A stretch of 64,000 nt of DNA from Polynucleobacter sp. AM-25C3 (lineage in GTDB: Bacteria > Pseudomonadota > Gammaproteobacteria > Burkholderiales > Burkholderiaceae). The notes under the pieces were generated by a model. The model ran no database searches, was not told the DNA's origin, and worked only from the letters and a program-made list of their open reading frames with translations. The stretch covers positions 124,001 to 188,000 of the forward strand of contig NZ_JACVOS010000001.1 in NCBI RefSeq assembly GCF_018882335.1, written 5' to 3'. Below, piece by piece: positions 26,279-32,988 of this stretch. Numbering within the stretch: position 1 is the stretch's first letter; each line of letters opens with the position of its first letter. Position numbers and translations under genes: made by a program.

Positions 26279-26310
26279 AGACCTAAGCTCGCCTTGATTT
26301 GCAGCACCAA

Positions 26311-26802
26311 CTAGTTAGTGCGAATCTTGCCCAAAAGGGTTGTTGTAGAACGCTCATATAAAAATGGGATGGCGATTGCTTTACCACCCCAAGTCTTCAC
26401 CAAGCGAGTCTCTTCCAAGGTATCGATTTCATAGTCTCCGCCCTTGACGTAGATATCCGGACGAATTTTAGCTATGAGATTTACTGGGGTTTGCTCAGTA
26501 AATAACACGGCCATATCTACGCTTGCAAGAGCTGCCAATAAAGCTTGGCGGTCAGCCTCGGTATTAATGGGCCTGTCATCACCCTTACCCAACATCTTCA
26601 CGGAGGCATCTGAGTTGACCCCCACCACAAGACTAGCCCCTAACTCGCGAGCTTGAGCTAAATAACTGGCATGTCCGCGATGCAGAATATCAAAGACGCC
26701 ATTAGTAAAGACCAGCGGCCTTGGAAGCGCAGCAATGCGGGCCTCCAAATCTGCTGGCGCACAGACTTTGGACTCAAAAGAAGGTAAAGGTAAGGAGCTC
26801 AT
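26311..26802 (-). CDS. rfaE2: D-glycero-beta-D-manno-heptose 1-phosphate adenylyltransferase
   Basis: Stand-alone nucleotidyltransferase domain equivalent to the C-terminal part of E. coli HldE. It activates heptose phosphate for the lipopolysaccharide core. The 163 residues contain the nucleotide-binding FTNGVFDILHRGHASYL with its HxGH motif, VVGVNSDASVK, and ERSTTTLLGKI. The kinase half is not nearby, as expected for separate HldA and HldC enzymes in this class. Confidence 0.93.
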   Translation of the reverse strand: MSSLPLPSFESKVCAPADLEARIAALPRPLVFTNGVFDILHRGHASYLAQARELGASLVVGVNSDASVKMLGKGDDRPINTEADRQALLAALASVDMAVLFTEQTPVNLIAKIRPDIYVKGGDYEIDTLEETRLVKTWGGKAIAIPFLYERSTTTLLGKIRTN

Positions 26803-26892
26803 AACGCCATATTAATGGCATTGAGACAGGTCCAACGATATTTGCCAGAATGTCTTAGACTTGGACATCCCCGCTCAAGCAAAAGGCTTTAG

Positions 26893-27471
26893 ATGATTCG
26901 CAATATGACAAAGCACTTATTAGCACTGCTTTTGCTAGTTCCAGCAATGCAATTCGTTGCTGCAGCTCAGCCAGTGTCGCCTAGTTGTAGCCCTCTCCTA
27001 TCCCACACCTTCCCAAGATTGCAGGATGAGGCGCCTCAAAATCTATGCCAATATCAAGGGAAAGTTGTTTTGGCAGTTAATACAGCCAGTTTTTGTGGCT
27101 TTACTAGTCAATATGAAGGCCTTGAGAAACTGTATGCCAAATATAAAGATCGTGGCTTAGTTGTACTGGGATTTCCATCAAATGATTTTGGACAGCAAGA
27201 ACCTGGGAGCAACAAAGAGATTGCTGACTTTTGTAAAAATACCTATGACGTGAAGTTTCCCATGTTTGCCAAGAGCTCAGTCAGCGGAAGTAATCCCAAC
27301 CCCTTATTTAAGATGTTGATTGCCAAAACTGGCACGACACCTAAATGGAATTTTTATAAATACCTCATTGATCGCAACGGTAATGTCATCGATGCCTTTG
27401 GCAGTATGACTAAACCAACCAGCAGCAGCCTAACCGGCGAGATAGAAAAACTTCTTGGAGAAAAAATTTAG
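26893..27471 (+). CDS. Glutathione peroxidase-like protein, exported
   Basis: A 192-residue thiol peroxidase of the glutathione peroxidase family. An N-terminal signal peptide (about residues 1-25) suggests a periplasmic location, so the physiological electron donor could differ from glutathione. The catalytic triad-like residues are Cys68 (VNTASFCGFTSQY), Gln101 or 102 (SNDFGQQEPG) and Trp152 (PKWNFYKYLID). AAAAGG-type ribosome binding sequence precedes the ATG. Its stop overlaps the next start by one base (TAGTG), so it leads the fatty-acid modification operon. Confidence 0.93.
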   Translation: MIRNMTKHLLALLLLVPAMQFVAAAQPVSPSCSPLLSHTFPRLQDEAPQNLCQYQGKVVLAVNTASFCGFTSQYEGLEKLYAKYKDRGLVVLGFPSNDFGQQEPGSNKEIADFCKNTYDVKFPMFAKSSVSGSNPNPLFKMLIAKTGTTPKWNFYKYLIDRNGNVIDAFGSMTKPTSSSLTGEIEKLLGEKI

Positions 27472-28859
27472 TGGGTAAGAGAAAAGTTGCCATCGTTGGC
27501 GCCGGCATTTCTGGATTAGGGTGTGCCTATGCATTAAGACAGCACCCCGATTTAGATATCACGATATTCGAAGGTGGGAATCATATTGGCGGTCATAGTA
27601 ATACTGTGGACCTTTCATTAGAAACGCCTCAAGGCAAGATTACTCATGGAGTGGATACTGGATTTTTAGTATTTAATCGTAAGACTTATCCTCGTTTGCT
27701 TCGTCTATTTGAGGAGATCAAGGTTCCGATTGCGCCATCCGAGATGTCATTTTCGGTATCGATTGATGCCAGCGGAAAAACTGGACGAACAAAAAAAATA
27801 GAATGGGCTGGTAACGATCTCAATTCTTTTTTTGGACAAAGATCTAATCTGCTCTCGCTATCATTTTGGAGAATGGCTTATGACATCTTGCGCTTTAATC
27901 GCCTAGCTACTCAATTGGCCGAAGAACAAATCACTGCCAAACTTGAATACTCTGAGCCAGATGAACGCATTAAAGACTTTCTAGATCGCAATCGATTCAG
28001 CACGAGTTTTAGAGAAAACTATTTCTTGCCGATGATTGGGGCAATCTGGTCATGCTCCGTCGAGCAGATGCTGGAATTTCCCATTCAGACTATGGTGCGC
28101 TTCTGTCACAACCACGGCCTTTTGCAAATTCAGAATCGCCCCCAATGGCTCACTGTAAAAGGCGGATCACGAGAGTATATAAAGCTGCTGGTGGCGGCCC
28201 TAGAAAAACATGGGGTTCAAGTTTTGCGTGAATCTGTTTCCCGCATCAATGCGAGTCAAACCAAAAACTCTCCAGTTGAAGTCATTACATCCTCTGGGTC
28301 GCACTGGTTTGATGAAGTCGTGATGGCTTGCCATAGCGATCAGACTTTAGAGTTGGTTCACGGTATCACACAAGACACTCGGAATATTTTGGCATCGATT
28401 CCATACCAGAAGAACCGAGCTATCCTGCATACCGATACGAACTTCTTGCCTGAAAATGAACGTTGCTGGGCGGCCTGGAACTACACAGCGAAGTCTGGAA
28501 CATCACCAAGCGCACAACAGCATGTGAGCGTGAATTATTTAATCAATCGCCTCCAGCCCTTGCCTCAAGCGCTTGAGAGCACTCAGATCATTGTGAGCTT
28601 AAATCCGCTTACTGATCCGAATCCTCAGCTAGTGCACGAAGAAATTCATTACTCTCACCCCGTATTTGATATGCGTGCTATTCAGGCACAAAAAGAGATG
28701 CCTTTGATTCAGGGCAACTCCTCTATTTGGTATTGCGGTGCATGGACCGGGTTTGGCTTTCATGAGGATGGCCTACGCTCAGGTGAGTTGGTAGCAAAAG
28801 ATCTTATGGAAAGCATTCCTCATCGCAGTTCATCAAACTCGACCCAAGACGTTCAATAA
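27471..28859 (+). CDS. FAD-dependent amine-oxidase-like oxidoreductase
   Basis: A 462-residue flavoprotein with an N-terminal Rossmann dinucleotide motif (VAIVGAGISGLGCAYAL, then FEGGNHIGGHSNTV). The middle has FLVFNRKTYPRLLRLFEE, and the C-terminus closes the FAD site with WYCGAWTGFGFHEDGLRSG. The start is GTG at 27471, sharing a base with the previous stop. Proteins of this type occur beside DUF1365 and CFA-synthase-like genes, where some are reported as fatty-acyl desaturases in furan fatty-acid synthesis. That role is inferred here from context. Confidence 0.9.
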   Translation: MGKRKVAIVGAGISGLGCAYALRQHPDLDITIFEGGNHIGGHSNTVDLSLETPQGKITHGVDTGFLVFNRKTYPRLLRLFEEIKVPIAPSEMSFSVSIDASGKTGRTKKIEWAGNDLNSFFGQRSNLLSLSFWRMAYDILRFNRLATQLAEEQITAKLEYSEPDERIKDFLDRNRFSTSFRENYFLPMIGAIWSCSVEQMLEFPIQTMVRFCHNHGLLQIQNRPQWLTVKGGSREYIKLLVAALEKHGVQVLRESVSRINASQTKNSPVEVITSSGSHWFDEVVMACHSDQTLELVHGITQDTRNILASIPYQKNRAILHTDTNFLPENERCWAAWNYTAKSGTSPSAQQHVSVNYLINRLQPLPQALESTQIIVSLNPLTDPNPQLVHEEIHYSHPVFDMRAIQAQKEMPLIQGNSSIWYCGAWTGFGFHEDGLRSGELVAKDLMESIPHRSSSNSTQDVQ

Positions 28860-29645
28860 ATGAACTTAGCAACGATTAATTTTGGGGCGGTAAAGCATCG
28901 ACGTTTTCGTCCCGCGAAAAATGCGTTTGGTTATGGTGTATTTACTTTATCCATTCCAATGCGTGCACGCAAGGCAGATAAAGCCTTGTTGAGCAAGCAT
29001 GGCCTAAGAGATAGTCAGTTCGGACTTTTTTCATTCTTTGATCAAGATCATGGAATGGGCAATGGGGATAGTCTCTCTTGGATAGAAAAGATTCTTGAAG
29101 AAAACCACATTAACCTGGTTGATGGTGAAATTTGGCTACAAACATTTCCACGGGTGCTCGGCTATGTCTTTAATCCCGTCAGCTTCTGGATCTGCACCCG
29201 ACTTGATGGGCAAGTTCAAGCAGTATTAGCCGAAGTGAATAACACCTTTGGTGAACGGCACTGCTATCTACTGCATCATGATTCCGGTGAACCACTAAAA
29301 TCTGGTGTGACCCTCGTTAGCAAGAAAGTCTTTCATGTGTCGCCTTTCTGTGATGTACGCGGGGAATATCACTTCCGCTTTTTGTTTCCCCAAGACAGCA
29401 ACTCAAAAAGAAATATTGTCTGCCGTATTGAGCTCCACGAAGATGGCGCCCCACTGATTAACACCAGCATTAGTGGCTTAGCTGAACCTTTAAGCAAAAG
29501 CGCTCTCTACCTTGCTTTTCTACGCTATCCTTTGATGAGCCTGGGCGTCATTGGCCGCATTCATTGGCAAGCATTGAAATTATGGCTAAAAGGTGTACCC
29601 TTTTATTCGAAACCTAAACCACCAGAACTTGAAATTACTCGATGA
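28860..29645 (+). CDS. DUF1365 protein
   Basis: A 261-residue protein of the DUF1365 family. Diagnostic segments are the N-terminal NFGAVKHRRFRPAKNAFGYGVF (described by position), FPRVLGYVFNPVSFWIC and EVNNTFGERHCYLL. It has no clear signal peptide. It starts immediately after the oxidoreductase stop and overlaps the methyltransferase gene by 4 bases. The biochemical role is unknown; its fixed association with CFA-synthase-like enzymes points to lipid modification. Confidence 0.92.
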   Translation: MNLATINFGAVKHRRFRPAKNAFGYGVFTLSIPMRARKADKALLSKHGLRDSQFGLFSFFDQDHGMGNGDSLSWIEKILEENHINLVDGEIWLQTFPRVLGYVFNPVSFWICTRLDGQVQAVLAEVNNTFGERHCYLLHHDSGEPLKSGVTLVSKKVFHVSPFCDVRGEYHFRFLFPQDSNSKRNIVCRIELHEDGAPLINTSISGLAEPLSKSALYLAFLRYPLMSLGVIGRIHWQALKLWLKGVPFYSKPKPPELEITR

Positions 29646-30937
29646 ATCGCCCCGGTCAATCATTGCTATCGCGCCTAATATTTTCTCTTCCAAAGAAGCG
29701 AGAATCTAAACGACAGCAACATCGTGCAAGCACAGAAGCATTATTAGGTCTTCTAGCTCAATTGCGCAGTGGGTATCTTGTGCTCACCTTGCCCAATCAG
29801 GAAATTAAAGAGTTTGGCAATCGCACCGATCCACTCCATGCAGAAATCCAAGTCTTAAACTGGTCAGTCTTTAGGCAGGTCCTTTCGCATGGTGATATTG
29901 GCTTTGCTGAGAGTTATATTCGTGGTGAATGGAATACACCTGATCTCAAAGCCGTTCTCGAGCTTGCAATTCGAAATCGCACCATCCTAGACAGAGCAAT
30001 CTATGGGAGTTGGCTAGGTTCTTTGGCCTACCGCCTAAGGCACTGGTTTAGAGATAACTCAAAATCTGGTAGCCGCAAAAATATTCATGCGCATTACGAC
30101 TTAGGCAATTCCTTTTACAGACTTTGGCTTGATCCCACCATGAGTTATTCCAGCGCATGGTTCTCTGAGGGTGATAAGCAATCACTTGCCGATGCGCAAC
30201 GCGCCAAAATCCAGCGCATTCTTCAATCTATGAATGCCAAGGCCAGTGATGAAATCCTAGAGATAGGCTGCGGCTGGGGTGGCTTTATGGAAGAAGCCCT
30301 GAGAAATGGCAATCAAATCACTGGCCTCACTTTATCGACAGAACAAAAAGGGTTTGCAGAGTCCAGACTCCAAATGGTCTCTGCGGAAGTTGGCAATAGA
30401 AATAAATTTGAAGTTCGTCTTCAAGACTATCGGGACTGTGCGGAACAGTTTGATGGCATCGCTTCGATTGAAATGTTTGAGGCCGTTGGTGAAAACCATT
30501 GGGGTGAATATTTTCAAACGATTGCCAAACGACTCAAAGCGGGCGGCAGGGCTTGCATTCAAACTATTGTCATCGCAGAGGATCTATTTGATCGCTATCG
30601 CCATAGCACTGACTTTATTCAGCAGTATGTTTTTCCGGGGGGCATGCTTCCCTCGCCCTCTAAATTTAAGGCTGCTGCGGCAAGCGCAGGGTTGGAGGTG
30701 GAGTCAGAGTTTGCCTTTGGTGCCGACTATGCAAAAACCTTATGCCTCTGGCGTGATAGCTTTAATCACAAAATTGAAGAAATTTATCACCTTGGCTTCG
30801 ATGAGGCCTTTGTTCGTCTCTGGAATTTCTATTTGATGTATTGCGCTGCTGGATTCTCAGAAAAGAATATTGATGTCGTTCAGTACACCTTAAGACATCA
30901 AAGCACCCATTCTTCTGGAGATGCGCTGACACCATGA
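29642..30937 (+). CDS. CFA-synthase-like S-adenosylmethionine fatty-acyl methyltransferase
   Basis: A 431-residue member of the cyclopropane-fatty-acid synthase superfamily acting on double bonds of membrane phospholipids. Motifs: AHYDLGNSFYRLWLD (150-164), SAM motif EIGCGWGG (207-214), IEMFEAVGENHWGEYF, FGADYAKTLCLW. Against the bicarbonate-site residues of E. coli Cfa as I recall them, Glu280, Ile309 and Tyr363 are kept. The Cys (in YSCA) is Ser171 and the His is Gln307. The product may therefore be a methylated or methylene fatty acid rather than a cyclopropane. Confidence 0.9.
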   Translation: MNRPGQSLLSRLIFSLPKKRESKRQQHRASTEALLGLLAQLRSGYLVLTLPNQEIKEFGNRTDPLHAEIQVLNWSVFRQVLSHGDIGFAESYIRGEWNTPDLKAVLELAIRNRTILDRAIYGSWLGSLAYRLRHWFRDNSKSGSRKNIHAHYDLGNSFYRLWLDPTMSYSSAWFSEGDKQSLADAQRAKIQRILQSMNAKASDEILEIGCGWGGFMEEALRNGNQITGLTLSTEQKGFAESRLQMVSAEVGNRNKFEVRLQDYRDCAEQFDGIASIEMFEAVGENHWGEYFQTIAKRLKAGGRACIQTIVIAEDLFDRYRHSTDFIQQYVFPGGMLPSPSKFKAAAASAGLEVESEFAFGADYAKTLCLWRDSFNHKIEEIYHLGFDEAFVRLWNFYLMYCAAGFSEKNIDVVQYTLRHQSTHSSGDALTP

Positions 30938-31710
30938 AACAAAAAGGGGTTGAAGATTTTGCTAGTAAGCGCGTTTGGGTTATTGGGGCTTCCAGCGGGA
31001 TCGGTGAAGCCTGCACCATTGCTTTAATAAAAGCGGGCGCAAAAGTAGCCCTCTCCAGTCGTCGTGCTGAGCGGCTAAATGCGCTTGCGCAAGCTGGAGA
31101 TCAAGAGCAAACCTTAGTTCTTCCTTTAGATGTTACCCATCAAGAGCAACTGGCAGATGCTCACCAAAGCATCCTGGCAACCTGGGGTGGTCTGGATTTA
31201 CTGCTCTTTGTCTCAGGCATCTATACCCCTTTGAGAGCGGACAACTTTGACTTTGATGTTGCGCAGAAAACGATTGATGCTAATTTACTTGGGCCTATGC
31301 GGGCGGTTGCAGTTGTCTTACCTGAAATGCTCAAGAGTCACGCCGGCCATATTGCGATTGTGGGTAGCGTAGCTGGATATAGCGGACTCCCAAAAGCCCT
31401 AGCCTACGGACCTAGCAAAGCAGGGATTATTAATTTCTGCGAGATCCTCTATTACGACTTACTGCCGCAGGGCGTGAGCGTCCACATGATCTCTCCAGGA
31501 TTTGTGGCTACTGAAGCTACCGCACAAAATGATTTTGAGATGCCAGCCCTTATCACTCCCGATGAAGCTGCAAGAGAAATTCTGAAAGGTATTCAGGCTG
31601 GGGTGTTTGATATTCACTTCCCTAAGCGGTTTTCAGGATTCTTAAAGTTTCTCAGAATCCTGCCCTACCCACTGTACTTTTGGATCCTACGACGCTTCGT
31701 AAAAATCTAA
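30934..31710 (+). CDS. Short-chain dehydrogenase/reductase
   Basis: A 258-residue SDR with the cofactor loop VIGASSGIGEACTIAL (16-31), the SSRRAERL segment suggesting NADP, and the catalytic Ser145, Tyr158 and Lys162 (YGPSKAG). A hydrophobic C-terminus (FLRILPYPLYFWILRRFVK) may associate with the membrane. It overlaps the methyltransferase gene by 4 bases and ends the operon, 10 bases from the convergent dsbA. The substrate is unknown but is likely linked to the same lipid pathway. Confidence 0.9.
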   Translation: MKQKGVEDFASKRVWVIGASSGIGEACTIALIKAGAKVALSSRRAERLNALAQAGDQEQTLVLPLDVTHQEQLADAHQSILATWGGLDLLLFVSGIYTPLRADNFDFDVAQKTIDANLLGPMRAVAVVLPEMLKSHAGHIAIVGSVAGYSGLPKALAYGPSKAGIINFCEILYYDLLPQGVSVHMISPGFVATEATAQNDFEMPALITPDEAAREILKGIQAGVFDIHFPKRFSGFLKFLRILPYPLYFWILRRFVKI

Positions 31711-31720
31711 AGCCAGTAAA

Positions 31721-32377
31721 TTATTTAAATTTATCCTTACGGATTTTTTGCTCTAAATAATCCATCACTGCAATTGCCTTGGCTTTTGTGCCAGCAATGG
31801 ATGGTGAAGTGACATAGCGTCCTTGCATCACAATGGTTGGTACACCATCAATACGATAGGTCTCAGCCATCTGCCTTGCAGCACGCGCCTTTGAAATCAC
31901 CGCAAAAGAACGATAGGTCGCCAAGAAAGTATTGCGATCGATTCCCTGCGATGCAACCCAGTCAGCAATTTCATTCTCAGTCATGAGACGCTTATTCTCT
32001 TTGTGCATGGCGTACATGACTTTTTCATTCATCGCGTCGCCCTTACCCATTGCTTCCAAGGCATAGAACAGCTGACTATGTGGCATAAAGTCATCGCGGA
32101 AAGCTACCGGCACTCTGCGAAACACGACATCTTTAGGCTGGCGCTTTACCCATGCGCTTAACTCTGGCTCAAAGTCATAGCAATGCGGGCAGCCATACCA
32201 AAAGAACTCGATGACCTCAACCTTTCCTTTAGCCTCAACAGGCTGAACCACGGGAAGAATACGGTAGTCAAATCCTTCTTCAATTTTTGGACTTTGAGCA
32301 CTTGCAATGCCTGAAATAGAAATAGCGGCACATAAGGCTGCTACAGAAAATAAAGTTCGTTTAGATAATGAAATCAT
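31721..32377 (-). CDS. dsbA: Thiol:disulfide interchange protein DsbA/DsbL type
   Basis: Periplasmic disulfide oxidase. It has a signal peptide (residues 1-27, ending ASAQ), and the thioredoxin-type active site CPHC at residues 63-66 (FFWYGCPHCYDFEPEL). The helical insert and cis-proline loop (RIDGVPTIVMQG) are present. Length 218 is normal. It overlaps the SPOR-domain gene by 4 bases. No dsbB is visible nearby. Confidence 0.94.
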   Translation of the reverse strand: MISLSKRTLFSVAALCAAISISGIASAQSPKIEEGFDYRILPVVQPVEAKGKVEVIEFFWYGCPHCYDFEPELSAWVKRQPKDVVFRRVPVAFRDDFMPHSQLFYALEAMGKGDAMNEKVMYAMHKENKRLMTENEIADWVASQGIDRNTFLATYRSFAVISKARAARQMAETYRIDGVPTIVMQGRYVTSPSIAGTKAKAIAVMDYLEQKIRKDKFK

Positions 32378-32988
32378 GGTTTGCTAGATTTAATAACGCT
32401 CGGTTTAATTCCCATGCCATTGAGCTTATCTCGCACGGGGTTACTTTCTTCAACGCTATTGTAGGGGCCAACACGAACGCGCCATAGTGTGTTGCCTTCA
32501 CTGCTAATCTCACTTAATTGTGACTGAATTCCTTGAATCGCCAAATTGGCCTTTTGCGCATCCGCATCAGCACGTTTATTAAAGGCGCCTACTTGCAAGA
32601 AATAAATTGCATCTGATTTAGCGGCGGGGACTGCGGTCACATCTACAGGCTTCTTGCCGTTAGCCAGATCGCCAATGGGATCAGCACCGGCTGCAGGTGC
32701 AGAAGATTTCCCTTGCAATGGCTTATTGAGATCAAGTGGCTCTGCAGGAGCGGCTGCCTCACCATCCGCTGGGGCAGGTGCAGATTTAATCGTCAAAGGC
32801 AAATTAGGGGCTCTTACTCCAGGACGCTCTTGAGGCGTGTTCTTGGAGAGATAAAAGGCAATCACAAAAGCAACGCCCAAGCCAACTCCGAGCCCCAAGA
32901 TGAAGCCAAGAATAGTGCCGCCATATTCTGGACTTGAGGCCTTTGTTTGTTTGGTGAAGCTGGTGTGTTGATTCGTTTTTTTCATCAT
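32374..32988 (-). CDS. SPOR-domain membrane protein
   Basis: Starting at ATG 32988 (MMKKTNQHTSFTKQ, preceded by GGGGA), the product is about 204 residues. One membrane helix (about 25-48, ILGFILGLGVGLGVAF) precedes a Pro/Ala-rich periplasmic linker. The C-terminal SPOR domain (AIYFLQVGAFNKRADADAQK to PSVIKS) binds denuded septal peptidoglycan. It resembles FtsN-like division proteins. It lies 49 bases after argS and couples to dsbA. Confidence 0.88.
   Translation of the reverse strand: MMKKTNQHTSFTKQTKASSPEYGGTILGFILGLGVGLGVAFVIAFYLSKNTPQERPGVRAPNLPLTIKSAPAPADGEAAAPAEPLDLNKPLQGKSSAPAAGADPIGDLANGKKPVDVTAVPAAKSDAIYFLQVGAFNKRADADAQKANLAIQGIQSQLSEISSEGNTLWRVRVGPYNSVEESNPVRDKLNGMGIKPSVIKSSKP

Follow-up and report, generated by a model that had tools for sequence, protein, structure and literature searches.

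The genomic data and published lipid data suggest that a compact five-gene unit in Polynucleobacter sp. AM-25C3 is a ufaDOM operon for furan fatty acid (FuFA) synthesis, that it is headed by an exported-type glutathione peroxidase (GPx) related to GPX4 and GPX7, and that it belongs to the genes with which Polynucleobacter meets photo-oxidative stress; we assign this reading a probability of about 0.78. The operon occupies positions 26893-31710 of the window, the stretch of 64,000 nucleotides that was analysed (G000:C27:124001-188000; G000 is the strain's own genome of 2.1 Mb in 56 contigs, and G, C and L denote genomes, contigs and loci throughout). The novelty is a variant, led by GPx and ended by a short-chain dehydrogenase (SDR), of the already known ufaDOM system.

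The five-gene operon and the UfaDOM pathway

The unit consists of five + strand open reading frames: (i) the exported-type GPx (26893..27471, 192 amino acids; Pfam GSHPx 121 bits), (ii) ufaD (27471..28859, 462 amino acids, GTG start; Amino_oxidase 56 bits, NAD_binding_8), a homologue of the FAD-dependent fatty acyl desaturase with the family and position of RPA2571/RSP1091, (iii) ufaO (28860..29645, 261 amino acids; DUF1365 250 bits), a homologue of the furan-forming oxygenase with the family and position of RPA2570/RSP1090, (iv) ufaM (29642..30937, 431 amino acids; CMAS 265 bits), a cyclopropane fatty acid synthase (CFA)-like S-adenosylmethionine-dependent methyltransferase homologous to the cis-vaccenate 11-methyltransferase, and (v) the SDR as last gene (30934..31710, 258 amino acids; adh_short 142 bits). 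All five products score above their Pfam family cut-offs. The coordinates bear out the successive overlaps of 1, 0, 4 and 4 bases given in an earlier note on this DNA made from the sequence alone, and the first two junctions were also read in the sequence; they suggest that the five genes may be translationally coupled on one mRNA.

Lemke et al. (2020) report that UfaM, UfaD and UfaO turn cis-vaccenoyl chains into 11Me-12t-18:1, 11Me-10t,12t-18:2 and 9M5-FuFA, that UfaO carries DUF1365 and that RPA2571-2570-2569 is sufficient for the pathway, the counterparts in Rhodobacter sphaeroides being RSP1091, RSP1090 and RSP2144 (PMC7380195). The operon shares with this system the three enzyme families, as adjacent genes in the order D-O-M of RPA2571-2569, and the 11-methyl-18:1 acid reported in Polynucleobacter; likeness to the characterised Ufa proteins was judged by family and gene position. 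It differs in being headed by an exported-type GPx, in having an SDR last and in lying in a genome without RpoE/ChrR. Similarly, ufaD, ufaO and ufaM are consecutive in Halomonas, where the product of ufaM has been shown in Escherichia coli; neither a GPx nor a regulator is described there in the part of the report available (PMC12089945).

The proposal in the earlier note of a probable synthesis of furan or methylated fatty acids is thus supported by the three enzyme families and by 11-methyl C18:1 in four type strains. The Polynucleobacter reclassification paper reports 11-methyl C18:1w7c at 3.1% in QLW-P1DMWA-1, 8.1% in MWH-JaK3, 1.1% in MWH-HuW1 and 4.2% in MWH-MoK4 (PMC5018217, Table 4), and ufaM of Halomonas yields an 11-methyl acid in E. 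coli, a strain in which cyclic acids were also found (PMC12089945), so that the genus probably has the pathway's first product already on record. That note also called the pathway reduced; because ufaD, ufaO and ufaM are all present, in the Rhodopseudomonas palustris order, and 11-methyl C18:1 is on record in the four type strains, the pathway, judged by its gene content, is complete. By analogy with Rhodobacter and Rhodopseudomonas, we suggest that (i) UfaM would methylate C11 of phospholipid cis-vaccenoyl chains to give 11Me-12t-18:1, matching the product reported in the genus, (ii) UfaD would desaturate this chain to 11Me-10t,12t-18:2, and (iii) UfaO would insert oxygen from O2 to give 9M5-FuFA. 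The furan chains would then quench singlet oxygen in the membrane, GPx would reduce the resulting lipid or hydrogen peroxides and the SDR might, as a guess, reduce carbonyl products.

Two of the enzymes allow a closer look. UfaM is the only strong CMAS match in the genome and scores below the NCBIfam CFA equivalog cut-offs (251.6 versus 400 and 236.9 versus 600 bits). It is 31% identical to E. coli Cfa, with Cys139 replaced by Ser and His266 by Gln, and with Glu239 and Tyr317 kept. Across 117 distinct operon proteins (125 frames, from which four were dropped for length and to which the window protein was added, giving 122 rows), Gln at Cfa position 266, Glu at 239 and Tyr at 317 are universal and position 139 is Ser in 115 and Ala in 2; the three solved CFA synthases compared keep Cys and His at positions 139 and 266, residues which we take to hold the bicarbonate base. 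DUF1365 has 44 invariant positions across 51 diverse sequences, and the predicted model of UfaO (pLDDT 92.7), which weakly resembles nitrobindin and lipocalin-type barrels, contains many beta-strands and invariant histidines.

Conservation in the genus

DUF1365 is present in 147 of 151 genus genomes and in 116 of the 117 of good quality. Named relatives have UfaD identities of 88-90%, and a DUF1365 relative from P. aenigmaticus is 91% identical; at the family level, 116 of 249 genomes, spread over 13 of 25 genera, have a UfaD match (E up to 1e-60). Flanks were read for 55 primary genus loci, picked to span the identity range and with odd ones included. In answer to the check on gene order that the earlier note proposed, the order is conserved: the five genes, with the SDR in the same last place, lie in order on a single strand in 51 of the 55 loci; of the other four, L074 and L079 lack GPx, and L084 and L088 are cut by contig ends. 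Because this order is kept and the overlaps recur in many loci, the arrangement is more than chance. Most relatives examined thus keep these five genes, which most likely serve to make unusual membrane fats that absorb singlet oxygen and to detoxify the ensuing peroxides.

Four of the 51 ordered copies are damaged by internal stops or split frames, heavily at L064 (G017) and L087 (G102), and by one stop in ufaM at L047 (G022); at L097 (G116) ufaD has a single stop and the SDR is split. In G105, a single contig, the block from ufaD to the SDR has been lost and a GPx copy remains with one internal stop; the flanking lipB, birA, coaX, hldE, dsbA and argS match stop-free. At L075 a stop lies within the GPx match. 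LitR and the photolyase-related (DPRP) gene lie upstream at nine genus loci, in eight of which folE2 stands between GPx and ufaD; this inserted GTP cyclohydrolase gene was seen at L065 (9871-10674) and at seven further loci of the LitR clade. A second, distant ufaD-ufaO-ufaM-like set (26-37% identity) lies on another contig of one genus member (L089, G006:C8:1-6345) and was excluded from the 55 primary loci.

Damage to the operon accompanies loss of the photolyase-related gene among the genomes compared. An entire or fragmented DPRP gene was found in 140 of the 151 genus genomes, and the gene is missing or broken in six (G017, G022, G062, G102, G105 and G116) of the 49 single-contig genomes (a hand count). 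The operon was read in 19 of these 49 and is damaged or deleted in five (G017, G022, G102, G105 and G116), all within the DPRP-defective six; in G062 DPRP is defective and the operon intact, and the remaining 13 genomes have both. The chance of all five damaged operons falling within 6 of 19 is about 5e-4 (calculated by hand; a smaller, three-genome version was computed). This association is weakened by the choice of G017, G102 and G105 for their odd appearance and by the tendency of shrinking genomes to lose many genes. The genes flanking the damaged loci (L047, L064, L087, L097 and L269) match intact where checked.

The glutathione peroxidase and related loci

The usual catalytic tetrad of glutathione peroxidases is Cys, Gln, Trp and Asn. 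Solved relatives of the operon GPx include yeast HYR1 (the best match) and human GPX7 and GPX4. Cys68, Cys114, Trp152 and Asn153 occur in 84 of 84 distinct operon sequences, so that the catalytic Cys, Trp and Asn are kept, and in all 84 Asp98 replaces the usual Gln. The protein is probably of the monomeric two-cysteine type. Its N-terminus, judged by eye, is hydrophobic and, like those of several relatives, resembles an export signal, in agreement with the earlier view of an exported peroxidase at the head of the operon. A monomeric two-cysteine GPx outside the cytoplasm would suit the lipid hydroperoxides that singlet oxygen leaves behind. The P. asymbioticus genome paper lists a GPx, Pnuc_1970, which is likely the operon enzyme, with no mention of its operon setting, and in the part available finds no unusual adaptation to oxidative stress (PMC3308952).

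A precedent exists in Shewanella, where PgpD, a periplasmic GPx, and a cfa/photolyase operon are both members of the RpoE2/ChrR regulon (PMC4336711). The likeness lies in an exported GPx and cfa within one regulon; the difference is that pgpD and cfa are in separate operons with TGATCC...CGTA promoters, whereas here there is one operon, no ECF11/ChrR and no TGATC in the upstream gap.

Loci outside Polynucleobacter also place GPx before ufaD. Among the best 80 of 581 UfaD loci, 27 were counted, on their names or their similarity, as members of the Polynucleobacter group, and GPx lies directly upstream of ufaD in 26 of them. Of the 53 others, 47 have at least 1.3 kb upstream and are testable; the six remaining are too short, two of which still show GPx. 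GPx precedes ufaD in 22 of the 47 (11 with LitR, 11 without) and is lacking upstream in 25 (14 with LitR, 11 without). The idea that GPx had taken the place of the sigma factor/ChrR/photolyase part of the cluster does not survive these counts, given the 11 loci in which it stands alongside LitR.

Outside Polynucleobacter, DPRP and LitR commonly diverge from a series made up of (GPx), ufaD, ufaO, ufaM, a chalcone isomerase-like gene, DUF3833, an SDR and an NTF2-like gene, with parts often missing; several relatives of the operon thus have LitR and DPRP beside GPx-ufaDOM. In Pseudomonas, such a cluster, with phrB, an SDR, an FAD oxidoreductase and ufaM beside LitR, is light-inducible through LitR-type regulators and a LOV protein, ufaM rising 25- to 33-fold (PMC9758184); in contrast, the genome studied here has no LitR homologue and the 90-base gap upstream of the operon no TGTACA. 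In Stenotrophomonas, an extracytoplasmic function (ECF) sigma factor/ChrR pair controls a nine-gene operon that includes two CFA-type genes and an FAD oxidoreductase (PMC11832516). Six of eight Limnohabitans-named loci (L212, L215, L219, L223, L224 and L231) have DPRP and GPx-ufaDOM and no adjoining LitR; of the other two, one is cut (L221) and one shows no DPRP and no LitR (L248). A block AGTTTAAACTGANNNGTCRCAAAAT lies ahead of GPx in these six loci and in L229, and its strand facing DPRP somewhat resembles the Polynucleobacter element described below.

Regulation

The operon lies between an hldE-type cytidylyltransferase gene upstream on the opposite strand and a convergent dsbA-type gene downstream (names assigned in this analysis). 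No LitR match was found in the genome (E up to 1e-10), whereas 15 of the 151 genus genomes have one; its MerR matches are three frames of 117-137 amino acids. The search for an ECF sigma/anti-sigma pair that the earlier note had called for returned no ECF11/ChrR pair in the genome: the three sigma region 2 matches are an 845-amino-acid frame of RpoD size, RpoH and a PRK09047-type ECF beside DUF3619. A ChrR-like protein (G000:C15:19463-20083) is a tandem cupin and not a ChrR; it scores 54.3 against a cut-off of 124.5 for TIGR02451 and has no adjoining sigma gene. Between hldE and GPx there is no TGATC, the motif with which a TGATCC...CGTA promoter would begin. The reported absence of sigma factor, ChrR and photolyase therefore holds at the locus; genome-wide it fails for photolyase, with a photolyase gene at G000:C52 and a DPRP operon at G000:C15:1717-6238 (L107). 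The latter comprises TIGR03643/DUF2805, DCC1-like, chalcone isomerase-like, DUF3833 and DPRP genes, divergent from an SDR-DUF2237 pair.

Promoter-like and terminator-like matches in 26300-32400 fall below shuffled sequence (promoters 2 versus a mean of 9.4; terminators 2 versus a mean of 6.2). A promoter-proximal element, TGTCTTAGACTTG (26851..26863, + strand, with TAGACT at 26856-26861), lies 31 nt before the GPx ATG; it is common to this operon and the DPRP operon and may have a regulatory function. It matches the consensus AGTCTTARACTTG with one mismatch. With up to two mismatches, AGTCTTARACTTG occurs in 23 of 43 GPx upstreams outside the LitR clade and in 18 of 19 DPRP-operon upstreams (drawn from 21 loci, two of them without a visible TIGR03643 gene), the exception being L131, a stretch that ends inside the motif; it occurs in 0 of 457 upstreams of argS, UfaD, UfaM, UfaO, coaX, birA, SDR, dsbA and lipB and in 3 of 215 shuffles. 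These counts are not blind, because the GPx and DPRP sequences themselves served to define the motif, and the loci compared are related by descent. The element recurs at a third operon, DCC1-chalcone isomerase-like-DUF3833, in the three loci read (L176-L178), in two with one mismatch. The shorter TAGAC[TA], a pattern for which there is no control, is present within 230 nt ahead of GPx at 51 of 52 genus loci, nine of which have it solely as TAGACA; the one locus without it is that of G116 (L097). In addition, TGTCTTAGACT here resembles TGTCTTAGACA and TGTCCTAGACA beside LitR genes, both of which are themselves putative operators.

In this genome expression lies outside ECF11/ChrR and LitR control, and the element suggests a control shared with the DPRP operon; it may be a -10 box, an operator or both. 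The element narrows the regulation, which the earlier note had called unknown. As a tentative proposal, against which we judge the odds to be somewhat tilted, free-living Polynucleobacter, and perhaps Limnohabitans, may have rewired the photo-oxidative regulon of proteobacteria. With LitR lost and ECF11/ChrR absent, a regulator not yet described would act through one conserved element, AGTCTTARACTTG, on two or three scattered operons, GPx-ufaDOM-SDR, TIGR03643-DPRP and DCC1-chalcone isomerase-like-DUF3833, and furan lipids and the Asp-type exported GPx would be the basis of the known singlet-oxygen resistance of the group.

Alternative readings

Several observations weigh against a FuFA operon with an integral peroxidase. 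The GPx and ufa blocks are separable: G009 (L270) retains GPx, folE2, LitR and DPRP without ufaD-O-M-SDR, and ufa lacks an adjoining GPx at L074 and L079. In a humic lake, P. necessarius and Limnohabitans-related types fell under H2O2 (PMC3965437), and the GPx is therefore not a strong general H2O2 defence. RSP1087-1089 are dispensable for synthesis in R. sphaeroides (PMC7380195), so the SDR here may not matter either. A UV/cold study shows, in the part available, no change in transcripts or proteins of the operon. Genome-wide, AGTCTTARACTTG is not enriched (211 matches with at most one mismatch in 41 genomes versus 289 for the reversed control). On the lipid side, we presume that the 11-methyl C18:1w7c peak is 11Me-12t-18:1, the UfaM product. 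The strains in which it was measured are four Polynucleobacter type strains, the window organism not among them, and the published table names no furan fatty acid, a compound that its method may not name (PMC5018217); our literature search likewise found no report of a furan fatty acid in Polynucleobacter.

The separable blocks bear most directly on GPx, which could be a passenger, an independent periplasmic enzyme acting as H2O2 or lipid peroxidase and sharing the ufa promoter by happenstance. This would fit G009, L074 and L079, the 25 of 47 other loci without GPx upstream of ufaD, and the separate operon of PgpD in the Shewanella regulon. It fits poorly with GPx heading ufaD in 51 of 55 genus loci and 22 of 47 others and with the uniform Asp98 subclass to which all 84 operon sequences belong, and we consider it unlikely, though of appreciable weight. 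The coupling to peroxide removal that was first suggested thus stays plausible, with the qualification that the two blocks part in a few genomes.

Alternatively, the pathway may stop early, giving mainly 11-methyl-18:1 and perhaps the diene as membrane lipid, with UfaO doing little or catalysing another oxidation. Of the pathway's products, the first alone has been reported in the genus (PMC5018217); moreover, R. sphaeroides without chrR accumulates furan and 11Me-12t-18:1 alike (PMC7380195). On the other hand, the DUF1365 protein is kept in 147 of 151 genomes with its 44 invariant positions, and FuFA of R. palustris likewise went unreported until it was searched for (PMC7380195). A pathway that ends early is, in our judgement, improbable.

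That ufaM encodes an ordinary cyclopropane fatty acid synthase, the operon making cyclopropane lipids against acid or osmotic stress, is very improbable: the CMAS score and the identity to E. coli Cfa fit it, whereas the NCBIfam scores lie far under cut-off, Cys139 and His266 are replaced in all 117 distinct operon proteins, ufaM adjoins ufaD and ufaO here and, barring contig ends and broken copies, in related loci (which were found via ufaD or ufaO), and the available text of PMC5018217 has 11-methyl C18:1, no word beginning with 'cyclo' and no cyclopropane acid in its table.

Implications for freshwater Polynucleobacter

A complete ufaDOM operon led by GPx would bear on an observation from humic lake water, in which P. 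necessarius and Limnohabitans-related types increased or were unaffected when exposed to singlet oxygen; the authors state that abundant freshwater clades lack RpoE/ChrR homologues and that their defences may differ (PMC3965437). P. asymbioticus-type bacteria are reported to make up as much as 70% of freshwater bacterioplankton. The near-universal ufa operon, together with the published 11-methyl C18:1 values, offers a testable cause for the unexplained singlet-oxygen resistance of Polynucleobacter, and members with naturally broken operons exist within the genus for comparison with intact ones.

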